This document shows positions 5,827-52,594 of a stretch of DNA of 64,000 nt, in pieces. Below the pieces are notes generated by a model. That model did not search any database. It was given only the letters and a program-made list of their open reading frames with translations, and had not been told where the DNA came from. The first letter of the stretch is position 1; every line of letters starts with the position of its first letter. The position numbers and the translations under genes were made by a program. Origin of the DNA: Pectobacterium wasabiae CFBP 3304 (GTDB lineage Bacteria; Pseudomonadota; Gammaproteobacteria; Enterobacterales; Enterobacteriaceae); the NCBI RefSeq assembly GCF_001742185.1, contig NZ_CP015750.1:2108001-2172000 (forward strand). The letters are read 5' to 3'.

Positions 5827-5955
<129 letters not shown>

Positions 5956-33463: not shown

Positions 33464-35833
33464 ATGAAGCAAATTCGTCTGTTGGCTCAGTACTATGTTG
33501 ATTTAATGGTAAAACTGGGGCTTGTCCGTTTTTCACTGCTGCTGGCCTCGGTATTGGTGCTGCTGGCGATGGTGGTGCAAATGGCGGTCACCCTGTTGCT
33601 CAGCGGGGAGGTCGAGAATATCGATGTCGTCCGCTCTATTTTCTTCGGGCTGCTGATTACGCCCTGGGCTGTTTATTTTCTCTCTGTGGTGGTGGAACAG
33701 CTTGAAGAGTCGCGCCAGCGGCTATCGAAGCTGGTGGCGAAGCTGGAAGAGATGCGCCATCGGGATCTGGAGCTGAATGTGCAGCTTCAGGAGAACATCG
33801 CGCAGCTCAATCAGGAAATTGCCGACCGTATCAAAGCGGAAGAGGCTCGTGTGCTGGTGATGAGCCGACTCAAAGAAGAGATGTCCCGCCGCGAACAGGC
33901 ACAAATTGAGCTGGAGCAGCAATCTGCGCTGCTGCGTTCGTTCCTCGATGCCTCGCCAGATCTGGTTTACTACCGTAACGAAGAAAAAGAATTCTCCGGC
34001 TGCAACCGCGCAATGGAGCTGCTGGTAGGCAAAAGCCAGAAGCAACTGATTGGTTTGACGCCGCAGGATGTTTACGCCCCTGATATTGCCGAGAAAGTGA
34101 TGGAGACGGACGAAAAAGTGTTCCGTCATAACGTTTCTCTGACCTACGAACAATGGCTGGTTTATCCCGATGGGCGCAAAGCCTGTTTTGAGCTGCGTAA
34201 AGTGCCGTTTTATGACCGGATGGGCAAACGTCACGGGCTGATGGGATTCGGACGCGATATAACGGAGCGTAAGCGTTACCAGGACGCGTTAGAGAACGCG
34301 AGTAGGGAGAAGACCACTTTTATCTCAACAATCAGCCACGAGCTTCGTACGCCGCTTAATGGCATTGTCGGGTTAAGTCGCATCCTGCTGGATACGCAAC
34401 TTGACCCTGAGCAGCAAAAATACCTGAAAACCATCCACGTCAGCGCGATTACGCTGGGCAATATCTTTAACGACGTGATTGAGATGGACAAACAGGAGCG
34501 TCGCAAGGTGCAACTGGATAATCAGCCGATCGATTTCACCGGTTTTCTGGTGGATCTGGAAAACCTCGGTGGCCTGCTGGCGGAGCCGAAAGGCTTGAAG
34601 CTGATTATGGACCAGCACCAGCCTCTGCCGCAGAAAGTGGTGACCGACGGCACGCGCCTGCGGCAGATTCTATGGAACCTGCTCAGTAACGCGGTGAAAT
34701 TCACACCGAAGGGTGAGAAAGGCGAAAAGGGCGAAATTGTGGTGCGCGTCTGGCATGAAAAAGGCGACCGCCTGCGCTTCGAGGTTGAAGATTCTGGGAT
34801 GGGTATCCCGGCGGATGAATTGGAAAAAATCTTTGCTATGTATTATCAGGTCAAAGACCAGCACGGTGGGAAACCGGCAACGGGCTCGGGAATTGGTCTG
34901 GCGGTGTCGAAGCGTCTGGCGCAGAACATGGGAGGCGATATCCAGGTTTCCAGCATGCAAGGTAAGGGCTCCTGCTTCACCCTGACGGTGATTGCGCCGA
35001 GCGTCGATGAAGCGGGAAGCGGTCTGGAAGACGATGATGACATGCCGCTACCTGCGCTACACGTTCTGCTGGTGGAAGATATCGAATTGAACGTGGTGGT
35101 TGCGCGTTCGGTTCTGGAGAAACTGGGGAATAGCGTAGACGTCGCCATGACCGGACAGGACGCGCTAGATATGTTCGATCCCGATGAGTTCGATCTGGTG
35201 TTACTTGATATTCAACTGCCGGATATGACCGGGCTCGATGTGGCGCGTCAGCTACGTTCGCGTTATGCCAACCGCAATATGCCGCCGCTGGTGGCGCTGA
35301 CGGCGAATGTGCTGAAAGATAAACGCGAATATCTGGATGCGGGTATGGATGACGTGCTCAGCAAACCGCTGTCGGTGCCTGCGCTGACGGCCGTCATTAA
35401 ACAATATTGGGATAATCACACGGTGTGGGCGGAAGAACCTGTGGCTGAGGACGGTGATGAAATGGCAAAAGCAAAAGAAGATCTGCTGGATATCCCGATG
35501 CTGGAGCAGTATCTGGATTTGGTGGGGCCGAAATTGATTCATCAGAGCCTGGAGATGTTTGAGCAGATGATGCCGGGCTATCTGGCGATTCTGGATTCCA
35601 ACATGACGGCACGCGATCAGAAAGGCATTACGGAAGAAGGTCACAAAATTAAAGGGGCGGCGGGTTCCGTTGGGTTGCGGCATCTGCAACAGATTGCTCA
35701 GCAGATTCAGACTTCATCGCTACCAGCATGGTGGGATAACGTACAGGAATGGGTCGATGAGCTTAAGCACGACTGGCGTCATGACGTTCAGGTACTGCGT
35801 GATTGGGTAGCAAAAGCAGAAAAAGAGTCCTGA
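33464..35833 (+). CDS. arcB: Aerobic respiration control sensor kinase ArcB
   Basis: ArcB is the tripartite kinase that senses quinone redox state and phosphorylates ArcA. Two TM helices (about 23-47 and 58-77) are followed by a coiled coil, a PAS domain with redox cysteines Cys180 and Cys241, HisKA with His292 (STISHELRTPLNG), HATPase, a receiver with Asp582 (LLDIQLPDMTG) and an HPt domain with His727 (HKIKGAAGS). The 789 residues exceed the 778 of E. coli; part of this is a GEKGEKGE repeat in the ATPase domain. All phosphorelay residues are intact. Confidence 0.98.
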   Translation: MKQIRLLAQYYVDLMVKLGLVRFSLLLASVLVLLAMVVQMAVTLLLSGEVENIDVVRSIFFGLLITPWAVYFLSVVVEQLEESRQRLSKLVAKLEEMRHRDLELNVQLQENIAQLNQEIADRIKAEEARVLVMSRLKEEMSRREQAQIELEQQSALLRSFLDASPDLVYYRNEEKEFSGCNRAMELLVGKSQKQLIGLTPQDVYAPDIAEKVMETDEKVFRHNVSLTYEQWLVYPDGRKACFELRKVPFYDRMGKRHGLMGFGRDITERKRYQDALENASREKTTFISTISHELRTPLNGIVGLSRILLDTQLDPEQQKYLKTIHVSAITLGNIFNDVIEMDKQERRKVQLDNQPIDFTGFLVDLENLGGLLAEPKGLKLIMDQHQPLPQKVVTDGTRLRQILWNLLSNAVKFTPKGEKGEKGEIVVRVWHEKGDRLRFEVEDSGMGIPADELEKIFAMYYQVKDQHGGKPATGSGIGLAVSKRLAQNMGGDIQVSSMQGKGSCFTLTVIAPSVDEAGSGLEDDDDMPLPALHVLLVEDIELNVVVARSVLEKLGNSVDVAMTGQDALDMFDPDEFDLVLLDIQLPDMTGLDVARQLRSRYANRNMPPLVALTANVLKDKREYLDAGMDDVLSKPLSVPALTAVIKQYWDNHTVWAEEPVAEDGDEMAKAKEDLLDIPMLEQYLDLVGPKLIHQSLEMFEQMMPGYLAILDSNMTARDQKGITEEGHKIKGAAGSVGLRHLQQIAQQIQTSSLPAWWDNVQEWVDELKHDWRHDVQVLRDWVAKAEKES

Positions 35834-49407: not shown

Positions 49408-49745
49408 TTGCATTCCTTGTTGTGCAGCAATCTCGCTATGGTAGCGCTGTCTGTAGACGAATAATTGTCGATTCTATCAGAATCTGCCAATAGGATAAGG
49501 TAGCTGAACGTGCCATCTTTCAGCGAAATACGTTCGAAGAGTCAGGTAAATTGACCTTTCGGGTGATTCAGTGTGACGCGTTGTTGTTCAGTAAGATACC
49601 GAAAAGCAATGCGGTGTGTGGGTATAACCCTCGGTTTCGCTGACGTCACGCCTAATAAATGCTCAAAAACAATGATGAGTATAATGACAGTGGGTTCCGC
49701 CCTACAATACTGGATTCCATTAATACTTGTTACAGGAGTGCAGCC
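49408..49745. other. tolC-nudF divergent intergenic region
   Basis: About 340 bp contain the promoters of tolC (minus) and nudF (plus). The nudF frame is open to 49659, but codon use and E. coli comparison place the start at 49746. I see no convincing mar/sox/rob box or repeat. Confidence 0.5.
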
Positions 49746-50378
49746 GTGGTGTCTTCCGTGTCCGGTCCCGTTACTTTCACCAAAGATGATGTAGAAATTA
49801 TTGCACGTGAAAAACTGTATGACGGTTTTTTTGCGCTGGAGCGTTATCGCTTCCGCCATCGTCTGTTTAATGGCGGTATGAGCGGCGAAGTCAGCCGTGA
49901 GATCCTGGAGCGTGGCCACGCTGTCGTGCTGCTGCCTTACGATCCGGTACGGGATGAAGTGGTGCTGATAGAACAGATTCGTATCGCCGCCTATGACACC
50001 AGCGCGTCTCCCTGGCTGTTTGAACTGGTGGCTGGCATGATTGAGCCAGGAGAAAGCCACGAAGAGGTGGCGCGGCGTGAAGCAGAGGAAGAAGCCGGAT
50101 TAAGGGTTGGCCGCTGTCGACCGATAATCAACTATCTTGCCAGCCCCGGCGGCACCAGCGAACGTCTGGCGGTGATGGTGGGCGAGGTGGACACGCGTTC
50201 GGCGCAAGGGATCCACGGCCTGGCGGAAGAAAACGAAGATATTCGCGTGCATGTGGTGAGCCGAGAACAAAGTTATCAATGGGTTGAGGAAGGCATCGTT
50301 GATAACGCCGCCTCTGTCATTGCCTTGCAATGGTTAGCGTTGCACCATGAAGAACTGAAACGTGCGTGGGTGGATTGA
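49746..50378 (+). CDS. nudF: ADP-ribose pyrophosphatase NudF
   Basis: NudF hydrolyses ADP-ribose to AMP and ribose-5-phosphate. The Nudix box is intact: [11 protein letters not shown] then REAEEEAG (pattern GX5EX7REUXEEXGU). [20 protein letters not shown] at the N-terminus and [19 protein letters not shown] behind the box match E. coli. I use the GTG at 49746, seven bases behind AGGAG, giving 210 residues against 209 in E. coli. yqiB follows 4 bp downstream. Confidence 0.95.
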
Positions 50379-50382
50379 ATTG

Positions 50383-50814
50383 ATGAAACGTTATACCCCG
50401 GATTTCCCAGCCATGATGAGGTTATGTGAAACTAACTTCATGCAATTACGGCGTTTGCTGCCAAAAATTGATGAAGTTGGTGAAATCGCGGTTTATCACG
50501 TCAATAATGCGGTCTATCAACTGACGATCCTTGAATCTACTCGCTATACGTCATTGGTTGAGATTAAGCAGACGGCACCTGCTGTCAGCTATTGGAGTCT
50601 GCCAATGATGAGCGTTAGGTTGTATCATGACGCGTTGGTTGCGGAAGTGTGTGCCAGCCAGCAGATCTTTCGCTTCAAAGCACGTTATGATTATCCTAAT
50701 AAGAAGTTACATCAACGTGACGAAAAGCATCAAATTAATCAGTTTCTTGCTGATTGGCTAAAATATTGTTTGGCGTATGGTTCGATGTCGATACCGGTTT
50801 TTGATACCCAATAG
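50383..50814 (+). CDS. yqiB: DUF1249 protein YqiB
   Basis: YqiB is a conserved enterobacterial protein of unknown function. It has 143 residues, close to E. coli, starting [20 protein letters not shown]. The C-terminal half ([20 protein letters not shown], then [20 protein letters not shown]) is nearly invariant. It is linked to nudF by a 4-bp gap and normally lies before cpdA; here a long ERIC separates them. Confidence 0.94.
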
Positions 50815-50862
50815 ATTTCAATGTGCAGGAAAGTGGCCGCCGAGCCACAAGGGAAACCAACG

Positions 50863-51129
50863 TATACCCTAAATAATTCGAGTTGCAGGACAAAACGTTA
50901 ACGTTTTGAACAACGCGAAGCGTTAGCCCTTTAGGGCGATGCTCAGCGATGAGCATCGTAACGCGGCGACACAGTGACAAATTCGTCAAAGGCGAATTTG
51001 AGCAGCCAAAGGCTGACCTCTGGTGAGAGACAATATGTCTCTCATTCATCCCCGGGAGCTTACATCAGTAAGTGACTGGGGTGAGCGAGGAAAGCCAACG
51101 CACATGCAGCTTGAAGTATGATGGGTATA
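50863..51129. repeat. ERIC repeat enlarged by two hairpin-rich inserts (267 bp)
   Basis: The ends (TATACCCTAAATAATTCG and AAGTATGATGGGTATA) and the core (GAGCTTACATCAGTAAGTGA) are ERIC, but the element is 140 bp longer than the 127-bp form. Compared with the 5829 copy, one insert of 72 bp lies at 50891-50962 and one of 71 bp at 50978-51048, separated by the ERIC stretch GCGGCGACACAGTGA. Both consist of consecutive short hairpins, for example AAAACGTTAACGTTTT, GATGCTC/GAGCATC, CAAATTCG/CGAATTTG and GAGAGACA/TGTCTCTC. Confidence 0.9.
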
Positions 51130-51185
51130 TTCTGCAATTTGAAAGATGACGGGTAGAGACAGATTTACGTAACCAAGGACACCAT

Positions 51186-52013
51186 TTGGAAAGCCTGTTG
51201 ACACTGCCTGTGGCGAGTGGCGCCAGAGTCAGAATTTTACAAATAACAGATACCCATCTTTTTGCGGGCGAGCATGAAACCTTGCTGGGTATCAACACCT
51301 ATCGTAGCTATCACGCTGTGCTGAATGCCATCAAGGTTCGGCAGGAGGCGTTTGATTTGATTGTCGCGACGGGCGATCTGGCGCAGGATCATACGCTGCA
51401 AGCCTATCACCATTTTTCGAGTGGGATTGCACAGATCCCAGCTCCTTGCGTATGGCTTCCGGGTAACCACGATTTCCAACCCGCGATGGTCGATGCGCTG
51501 GCTGACGCCGGTATTGCGCCATCCAAACACGTGCTGCTGGGTGATAAATGGCAGATCATTCTATTGGACAGCCAGGTGTTCGGCGTGCCACACGGTGAAC
51601 TGAGTGAATACCAGCTTGAATGGTTGGAGCGTAGCCTGCAAGGCCAGCCCGACCGTTTTACCTTGCTGTTGCTGCACCATCATCCGCATCCTTCCGGCTG
51701 TACCTGGCTCGATCAACACAGCCTGCGCAATGCGCATAATTTGTCTGCGGTACTGGATCGCTATCCGAAGGTGAACACCGTGCTGTGTGGGCATATTCAT
51801 CAGGAGATGGATTTTGACTGGCATGGTCGCCGCTTGCTGGCAACGCCGTCAACCTGTGTGCAGTTCAAACCGCACTGTACCAATTTCACCATTGATGACG
51901 TGGCACCGGGATGGCGCTATTTGGACCTGCTGCCGGATGGCTGCCTGGAAACGGAGGTCTATCGTCTGTCGGGCAGCGAGTTCCTGCCTGACATGAATTC
52001 GGACGGTTACTAA
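51186..52013 (+). CDS. cpdA: 3',5'-cyclic-AMP phosphodiesterase CpdA
   Basis: CpdA hydrolyses cAMP and so tunes CRP-dependent genes. It is a class III phosphodiesterase with the metallophosphoesterase motifs DTHLF, GDLAQD, GNHDF and GHIH plus LLLHHHPHP. The start is TTG at 51186 with AAGGA upstream, giving [20 protein letters not shown], the E. coli-like N-terminus. The 275 residues match. It overlaps yqiA by one base (TAATG), so the two are coupled. Confidence 0.96.
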
Positions 52014-52594
52014 TGCCTACGCTTCTTTATTTGCACGGTTTCAACAGTACGCCACAGTCGGCGAAAGCGACCGCGTTAAAAGCGTGGCTGGCAGAACAGC
52101 ACCCTGAAATTGACATGGTGATCCCACAGCTTCCACCGTATCCGTCGGAGGCGGCTGAGATGATGGAATCGTTGATTATGGCTCGGGCGGGTCGTCCAGT
52201 GGGGATTGTTGGCTCTTCCCTCGGTGGTTATTATGCCACCTGGTTATCTCAGTGTTTTATGCTGCCTGCCGTGGTGGTGAATCCTGCTGTGAAGCCGTTT
52301 GAACTGCTGCTGGACCATCTGGGAGAATATCAGAACCCCTACACCGGTGAACAATATGTGCTAGAGTCTCGGCACGTTTACGATCTAAAGGTCATGCAGG
52401 TTGACCGACTGGAATCGCCGGATTTGCTCTGGCTGCTGTTGCAGACGGGGGATGAGGTTCTGGACTATCGTCAGGCAGTCGCGTATTACACGGCCTGCCG
52501 TCAAACGGTGGAGTCAGGGGGCAGTCATGCCTTTGTCGGATTTGAGCACTTCTTCACACCGATCGTGAATTTCTTAGGGCTTACGACAGACTGA
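52013..52594 (+). CDS. yqiA: Esterase YqiA
   Basis: YqiA is a small alpha/beta hydrolase with palmitoyl-CoA and other ester hydrolase activity in E. coli. It has [15 protein letters not shown] at the start, the nucleophile elbow [10 protein letters not shown], the catalytic aspartate in [11 protein letters not shown] and the histidine in [12 protein letters not shown]. The 193 residues match the family. It lies in the conserved nudF-yqiB-cpdA-yqiA-parE string, 84 bp before parE. Confidence 0.95.

Follow-up and report, generated by a model that had tools for sequence, protein, structure and literature searches.

The ERIC element at positions 50863 to 51129 of the window, by which we mean the whole 64-kb stretch (64,000 nucleotides) of the Pectobacterium wasabiae CFBP 3304 genome analysed here, contains two additional strings of small hairpins, and raises the question of whether these are two copies of one and the same unit, and by which route they came to reside within ERIC.

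The ERIC copy, its two inserts and its neighbourhood

The locus and its reference copy comprise the following features, given in window coordinates.

50863..51129, + strand: ERIC element of 267 bp, with ends TATACCC/GGGTATA, inserted at a TA dinucleotide (empty TA sites in orthologues)
50891..50962, + strand: four-hairpin module at ERIC site 1 (after CAGGA), with hairpins CAAAACGTT/AACGTTTTG, AACGC/GCGTT, GCCC/GGGC and CGATGCTCA/TGAGCATCG
50963..50977, + strand: ERIC backbone kept between the modules, as in the 127-bp orthologues except for bases adjoining the module
50978..51047, + strand: four-hairpin module at ERIC site 2 (between GTGA and ATCCCC), with hairpins CAAATTCG/CGAATTTG, CAGCC/GGCTG, ACC/GGT and TGAGAGACA/TGTCTCTCA
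50803..50862, + strand: left portion of an older, shortened ERIC-like relic, interrupted by the present ERIC and overlapping the 3' end of the upstream gene
51130..51158, + strand: right portion of the same relic (51128-51158 in the ERIC-like match)
50362..50814, + strand: upstream reading frame (labelled yqiB in the initial annotation)
51186..52013, + strand: downstream reading frame (labelled cpdA in the initial annotation)
5829..5955, - strand: plain ERIC of 127 bp without modules, the empty reference

The host of the inserts is an ordinary ERIC (also named IRU or RU-1): it begins with TATACCC at 50863, terminates with GGGTATA at 51129, occupies a TA dinucleotide and retains the 127-bp core, as removal of the inserts together with the adjoining bases yields the 127-bp orthologues of two sister genomes (G006 and G016). 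Insertions of about 70 bp in ERIC were reportedly described by Wilson and Sharp in 2006 and by De Gregorio in 2005; compared with that description, the inserts studied here form one covarying four-hairpin family, which occupies three sites in ERIC and is also found outside of it.

The two extra hairpin strings had been proposed by an initial annotation of this DNA and are confirmed, as the ends and the named palindromes are present and the predicted RNA folds lie below those of all shuffled sequences. The insert at 50891-50962 folds at -29.9 kcal/mol (mean of dinucleotide-shuffled sequences -14.9, z -5.5) and that at 50978-51047 at -31.0 kcal/mol (shuffled mean -14.1, z -5.7), with 0 of 200 shuffles as good in either case, and the entire ERIC reaches -121.6 (shuffled mean -70.9, z -10.9). 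When folded by itself on the + strand, the first insert prefers another structure, with three stems, to the four hairpins; on the - strand, the four hairpins are the best fold, and the first hairpin of this insert is present in the fold of the whole ERIC. The sizes of 72 and 71 bp originally assigned to the inserts hold in scale (about 70 bp) and not in detail: orthologous copies of 127, 197 and 267 bp set the net size at 70 bp per insert, because a few bases adjoining the module differ.

The ERIC probably lies within an operon, since same-strand genes are found on either side; four reading frames of this strand surround it (49659-50378, 50362-50814, 51186-52013 and 52013-52594). Its placement between yqiB and cpdA is likewise upheld as far as the frames are concerned, the two gene names being labels of the initial annotation that fit both flanking proteins.

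The present ERIC is itself hosted by a shortened ERIC-like relic (50803-50862 and 51128-51158), forming a younger ERIC within an older one; the ERIC-like score of this relic is 60.4, with 32.7 as the highest among 500 shuffles. Flank matches spanning the relic extend into sister genomes devoid of the ERIC, these being matches of the flanks as a whole.

One covarying family of four-hairpin modules comprises both inserts

Compared directly, the two window inserts exhibit no detectable likeness (z 1.3; 28 of 300 shuffles as good), and they are joined into one family because both resemble other family members, not each other. Among eight representative modules, 24 of the 28 pairwise comparisons were equalled by none of 300 dinucleotide shuffles, with z values of up to 10.4 between modules of different sites; the four weaker pairs had 2, 2, 9 and 28 of 300 shuffles as good, the weakest being that of the two window inserts. 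The similar design previously attributed to the two is thus borne out as common family through other members, and not as direct likeness.

The hairpins themselves covary. In an alignment of 29 modules from the three ERIC sites, changes on both sides occur in 17 of 26 base pairs, 109 alignment cells carry such changes against 35.2 after shuffling (0 of 500 shuffles as high), and 88.8% of the cells are paired in the four-hairpin structure against 75.1 in shuffled alignments. RNAalifold, left unaided on the same alignment, retained 15 pairs, both-side changes being present in 10, and left the fourth hairpin unpredicted. A second alignment of 150 rows from other genomes, which was fitted to the covariance model and is biased toward its structure, had both-side changes in 23 of 26 pairs and in 696 cells against 222 when shuffled (0 of 500 as high); its fourth helix is paired in 68.8%.

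Two covariance models were employed, of which R1 was built from ERIC inserts only (the 29 modules of three sites, window inserts included), and R2 from a set that left out window sequence and all site-2 inserts. R1 scores the site-1 window module at 77.7 bits and the site-2 module at 45.1 bits, its training set containing both. Searched against the 64-kb window, R2, which was trained on other copies, recovers both modules as family members, namely the site-1 module at 70.9 bits (E 2.7e-15) and the site-2 module at 32.9 bits (E 3.4e-6), E-values being rough; at E<=1 it gives two matches more, a reverse-strand shadow of 17.1 bits and one of 11.4 bits at 35811. These results show both window inserts to be members of one family of about 72 nt with four consecutive hairpins.

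Module sites in ERIC and differences between sister species

At least 105 distinct ERIC-like sequences were gathered from this genome out of 131 left-end matches, three among the 105 (295, 327 and 378 bp) being spans across two ends and not real copies. By reading the fetched sequences by eye, we found 43 ERIC copies with intact layout and modules; the others were plain copies of some 127 bp or had been rearranged, for instance into arm-module-arm forms that lack the ERIC centre. Single modules occupy site 1 in 7 of the 43 copies, site 2 in 6 and site 3 in 11, and multiple modules occur at sites 1+2 (7), 1+3 (7), 2+3 (4) and at all three (1). Two earlier expectations have to be abandoned here: a double insert is not unusual, as 18 of these copies carry two modules and 1 carries three, and the entry points are not confined to two, as ERIC offers three sites, all filled in locus L028. 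Both inserts, for which a genome search had been suggested, recur in other ERIC copies, and the family extends beyond ERIC.

Within the ERIC copies read, the module has one and the same orientation. It is preceded by GA in 29 of the 30 best matches in this genome (mostly ERIC copies and hence not independent), exceptions being the T in front of the site-2 module of two ERIC copies (L018 and L070). The window copies share this family trait of an A, usually GA, ahead of the module and of one orientation in ERIC, both modules being directly preceded by GA. Where the uninterrupted site is known, there is no target duplication, and the bases that adjoin the module are altered at 0 to 3 positions.

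At the orthologous position, 19 of 25 genomes of the genus have an empty TA, or nearly so. G006 and G016 possess a plain 127-bp ERIC, equal to the window copy minus the modules and the bases beside the first, G007 a 197-bp ERIC with the second module only, identical to the second module of the window, and P. wasabiae itself (G000) the 267-bp ERIC with both. Module content of one ERIC copy hence varies between species from 0 to 1 to 2 modules (127, 197 and 267 bp); moreover, the locus exhibits a 136-bp arm-module-arm form in G023 and a 58-bp remnant in G001. In flank trees, G000 is adjacent to G015, where the site is empty, and G007 lies close to G024, likewise empty, and to G006 and G016 with their plain ERIC. 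As ERIC-bearing and empty species are interleaved in the flank tree, gain, precise loss and exchange are not separable at this locus. The proposal that a mini-element entered ERIC twice is accordingly retained in that one family sits in two places, and not with regard to two fresh insertions, since gain, loss and exchange are all possible.

A further comparison of 15 loci of this genome with three genomes (45 comparisons) yielded 26 that matched in one piece, with no ERIC-sized gap, 1 without match and 18 with a gap. Going by gap lengths only, 3 of the 18 agree to within 2 bp with the copy of this genome, and the other 15 do not, for instance 198 against 127 bp, 271 against 197, 127 and 135 bp, 198 against 275 bp, and 204 against 275 bp; the smallest gaps measure 57, 65 and 93 bp.

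How did the modules multiply within ERIC? That they passed from copy to copy when ERIC arms recombined homologously or underwent gene conversion, with new insertion being rare and perhaps confined to once per site, has in our estimation an even chance of being right. Altered bases beside the module are common to the site-1 copies examined, which read ACG (ACA in two) to the right of the module where empty ERIC orthologues read AGG or TGG; these bases being changed alike, site 1 seems to have been entered once or a few times, and descent or gene conversion from few insertions fits them better than many separate insertions. In addition, an arm together with module A is 97-98% identical between different loci of different species. 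However, the entry point at site 3 varies slightly, with at least three variants (after GGTGA, GGTGAGTGA, and GAGTAAGGA or GAGTGAGGA), and module subtypes seem, by eye, to pair with both backbone subtypes.

Several ERICs of this genome (L042, L046, L047, L050, L053, L055, L119, L125 and L161) are of the arm-module-arm type, their centre being replaced by one module. Such forms are what recombination between modules at sites 1 and 3 should give.

We regard as rather unlikely a reductive history, according to which long, module-bearing ERIC is ancestral and the 127-bp and other forms emerged by precise or imprecise module loss. The title of a 2011 paper by Zo reportedly speaks of reductive divergence. 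Shortened derivatives do exist, both as arm-module-arm forms of about 131-182 bp and as 81-86 bp forms with one hairpin left; the 136-bp form and the 58-bp remnant at this locus, as well as the interleaved module states in the flank tree, speak for loss, too. Yet the module also resides outside ERIC, in tRNA, tmRNA and 5S sequence with a known uninterrupted form, and the modules of the three sites are homologous, so that they had one source at some time.

Hosts outside ERIC and the nature of the module

R1 reports 121 matches at E<=1 in this genome, 104 of them at E<=1e-5. Within the genus, all 25 genomes have matches, from 23 to at least 145 each (with up to 150 candidates scored per genome); with stricter filters, matches were found in 60 of 197 genomes and 23 of 79 genera of the order, and the phylum yielded matches in 58 of 299 genomes and 29 of 153 genera, other classes among them.

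For 34 matches of this genome not already placed in an ERIC copy, the flanks were read by eye. ERIC or ERIC remnants host 8, a SymE-like reading frame 3, and other long repeats 6 (L185, L189, L196, L206, L212 and L221); 15 make up a subfamily whose ends are rich in A, several lying immediately before terminator-like hairpins and some in tandem, 1 (L215) lies in no recognised host class, and 1 (L229) is a tRNA-linked RtT copy confirmed by Rfam at 100.3 and 96.8 bits. 

The frame which we take to be SymE-like is interrupted at three loci of this genome, with the module at L207 506-576, L208 551-620 and L210 525-595. Two other long repeat families have modules inside (L189, L196 and L212; L185 and L206), and L185 matches Rfam Ysr224 at 55.9 bits, below the gathering threshold of 70. 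Loci of the A-rich-ended subfamily, with terminator-like hairpins at gene ends, include L211, L213, L214, L216-L220, L223, L224, L226, L227 and L231. In genome G283, three modules of the same sequence (L415, L416 and L417) lie on different contigs with almost the same flanking sequence, two being close to a contig end, and possibly belong to a larger mobile unit carrying the module. Tandem modules without recognised host sequence (L421, L422, L423 and L434) occur in genomes of another class.

In other genera, 24 R1 matches from 19 stretches, taken from the best-scoring matches listed, were read by eye. Of these, 9 either follow GTTCGA, being of the T-loop type, or reside in a 5S copy (L236, L239, L240 twice, L243 twice, L244, L248 and L251), 5 in ERIC or ERIC-like sequence (L233, L238, L241 and L242 twice), and 10 in neither T-loop, 5S nor ERIC-like sequence. 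An A precedes the module in 24 of 24, with CA or TA instead of GA in some hosts. Another 21 matches comprised 7 of the T-loop type (L418, L420, L424, L426, L428, L429 and L432), 1 in a 5S copy (L430), 1 in ERIC (L431) and 12 elsewhere. According to Rfam, a tmRNA gene adjoins L239 and L426, and a 5S gene adjoins L251.

A larger T-loop sample comprised at least 118 stretches with 140 sites from named genomes, mostly Gammaproteobacteria among the 80 titles listed; being chosen by a pattern fixing the T-loop and the first hairpin, it cannot give the general share of T-loop-linked modules. Same-strand tRNA ends lie less than 150 nt upstream of 87 of the 140 sites (median 72 nt; 0 on the opposite strand; expected share 1.6%), and the tail of the same upstream tRNA continues in the right flank in 37 of these 87, against a mean of 3.3 and a maximum of 9 for shuffled tails (200 shuffles). 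The T-arm continues at 66 of the 140 sites (permuted mean 49.3, maximum 57), and R1 gave 159 matches at E<=0.001 on 100 loci of this sample, to which the covariation of the 150-row alignment above refers.

Common interruption of whole tRNA genes was considered and rejected: after removal of the module, ARAGORN found a whole tRNA at 12 of 140 sites compared with 9 and 9 of 140 in two controls, and 2 of 140 sites had a complete acceptor partner, compared with a control mean of 1.7 and maximum of 6 (50 permutations). At one locus (L356, near position 976), a tRNA-Val gene appears, by eye, complete on either side of a T-loop module.

These hosts recall RtT RNA (Rfam RF00391), known from RttR of the E. 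coli tyrT region, in which a tRNA 3'-end copy holds, within its T-loop GGTTCGA|ATCC, a hairpin string ending in GAGTA. E. coli K-12 has four RtT matches in the tyrT region (132.9-137.5 bits), and the three printed alignments read GGUUCGA (GGUUCGG in one), the hairpin string, GAGUA, and then AUCC...CCACCA; R1 matched three RttR hairpin strings there weakly, at 16.6 bits each. Both models coincide in the same place at L306 from Serratia (RtT 56.6 bits, R1 56.0 bits; RtT gathering 45), L418 (61.5 and 70.4 bits) and L424 (66.1 and 56.1 bits), and in further loci with RtT below gathering. Since RtT is a T-loop copy of the module, ERIC inserts and RtT hairpins look like one dispersed family. There are differences: the RtT model takes in the flanking tRNA sequence and leaves the ERIC inserts unreported, and the first hairpin of E. 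coli RttR differs from that of the module. RtT had no match at gathering (45 bits) in the window and none at E<=1 in the window copy (L001), whose modules are surrounded by ERIC and not by a tRNA 3'-end.

A second catalogued family, AaHKsRNA22 (RF02902), matches a module in L028 at 40.1 bits, above the gathering threshold of 39.8, and modules in several other loci below threshold; it is listed as an Aggregatibacter sRNA, unlike the ERIC-borne module, and the window copy does not attain its gathering threshold, being unreported at E<=1. Among open-licence papers, judged by titles and abstract starts, we found none that links ERIC inserts to RtT or tRNA T-loops.

With REP/MITE-type and nested repeats, the module shares that it is non-autonomous, palindromic and multicopy. 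It differs from REP/MITE-type repeats in consisting of four consecutive hairpins, with no terminal inverted repeat and no target duplication seen, in its hosts (T-loop, 5S and ERIC), and in occurring in a genome without a Y1_Tnp match. Hairpins, one orientation, a short target motif and lack of target duplication are typical of REP units moved by Y1 (RAYT) transposases, and the module displays all four. Nonetheless, we deem it very improbable that an IS200/IS605-type Y1 transposase moves the module as a REP-like unit: Y1_Tnp (PF01797) had 0 matches in this genome and none in 5 of 8 other genomes tested, which leaves the module-bearing G000, G119, G084, G163, G120 and G196 unmatched, the domain being present in G104, G134 and G195. 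Local decay or chance palindromes in one ERIC copy, to which the initial annotation would have resorted had neither insert occurred elsewhere, is practically ruled out by the 104 genome copies at E<=1e-5, the covariation and the detection by the held-out model R2, and we found nothing in its favour.

Taken as a whole, we consider it probable that the module is a non-autonomous mobile unit found in set positions and in one orientation, which multiplied mainly together with ERIC. This explanation builds on observed features, namely the unity and covariation of the family, its ERIC sites, the variation of modules between species, and the T-loop (tRNA and tmRNA) and 5S contexts. The two window inserts would then be two copies of a four-hairpin module of about 72 nt that usually sits after (G)A, inside other repeats and copies of stable-RNA 3' ends. 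Such a unit would enter its hosts by precise insertion without target duplication. Once in ERIC, it would multiply chiefly by travelling along when ERIC transposes and through exchange among copies of ERIC. This analysis found no enzyme that mobilises it and saw no insertion arising de novo.

More tentatively, and with somewhat less than even confidence, the ERIC inserts of about 70 bp, RtT RNA and AaHKsRNA22 could represent one Pseudomonadota-wide non-autonomous hairpin element. Its targets would be structured hosts (tRNA/tmRNA T-loops, 5S rRNA 3' ends and ERIC), which it would enter precisely, in a single orientation, mostly behind (G)A and with no duplication of the target, perhaps by an RNA or single-strand route.

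For P. wasabiae, transcription of the operon would place a stable chain of stems in the mRNA, in the stretch separating the two neighbouring genes, and this would most likely affect transcript processing or stability. According to work in Yersinia cited in PMC2229807, ERIC influences how stable transcripts are. For the family, ERIC inserts, the E. coli RttR repeats and an Aggregatibacter sRNA family, catalogued apart so far, are now tied together. With many dispersed module copies having known uninterrupted sites and differing between species, it becomes testable how tiny, enzyme-less hairpin repeats spread, and why copies of tRNA and rRNA ends should house them.
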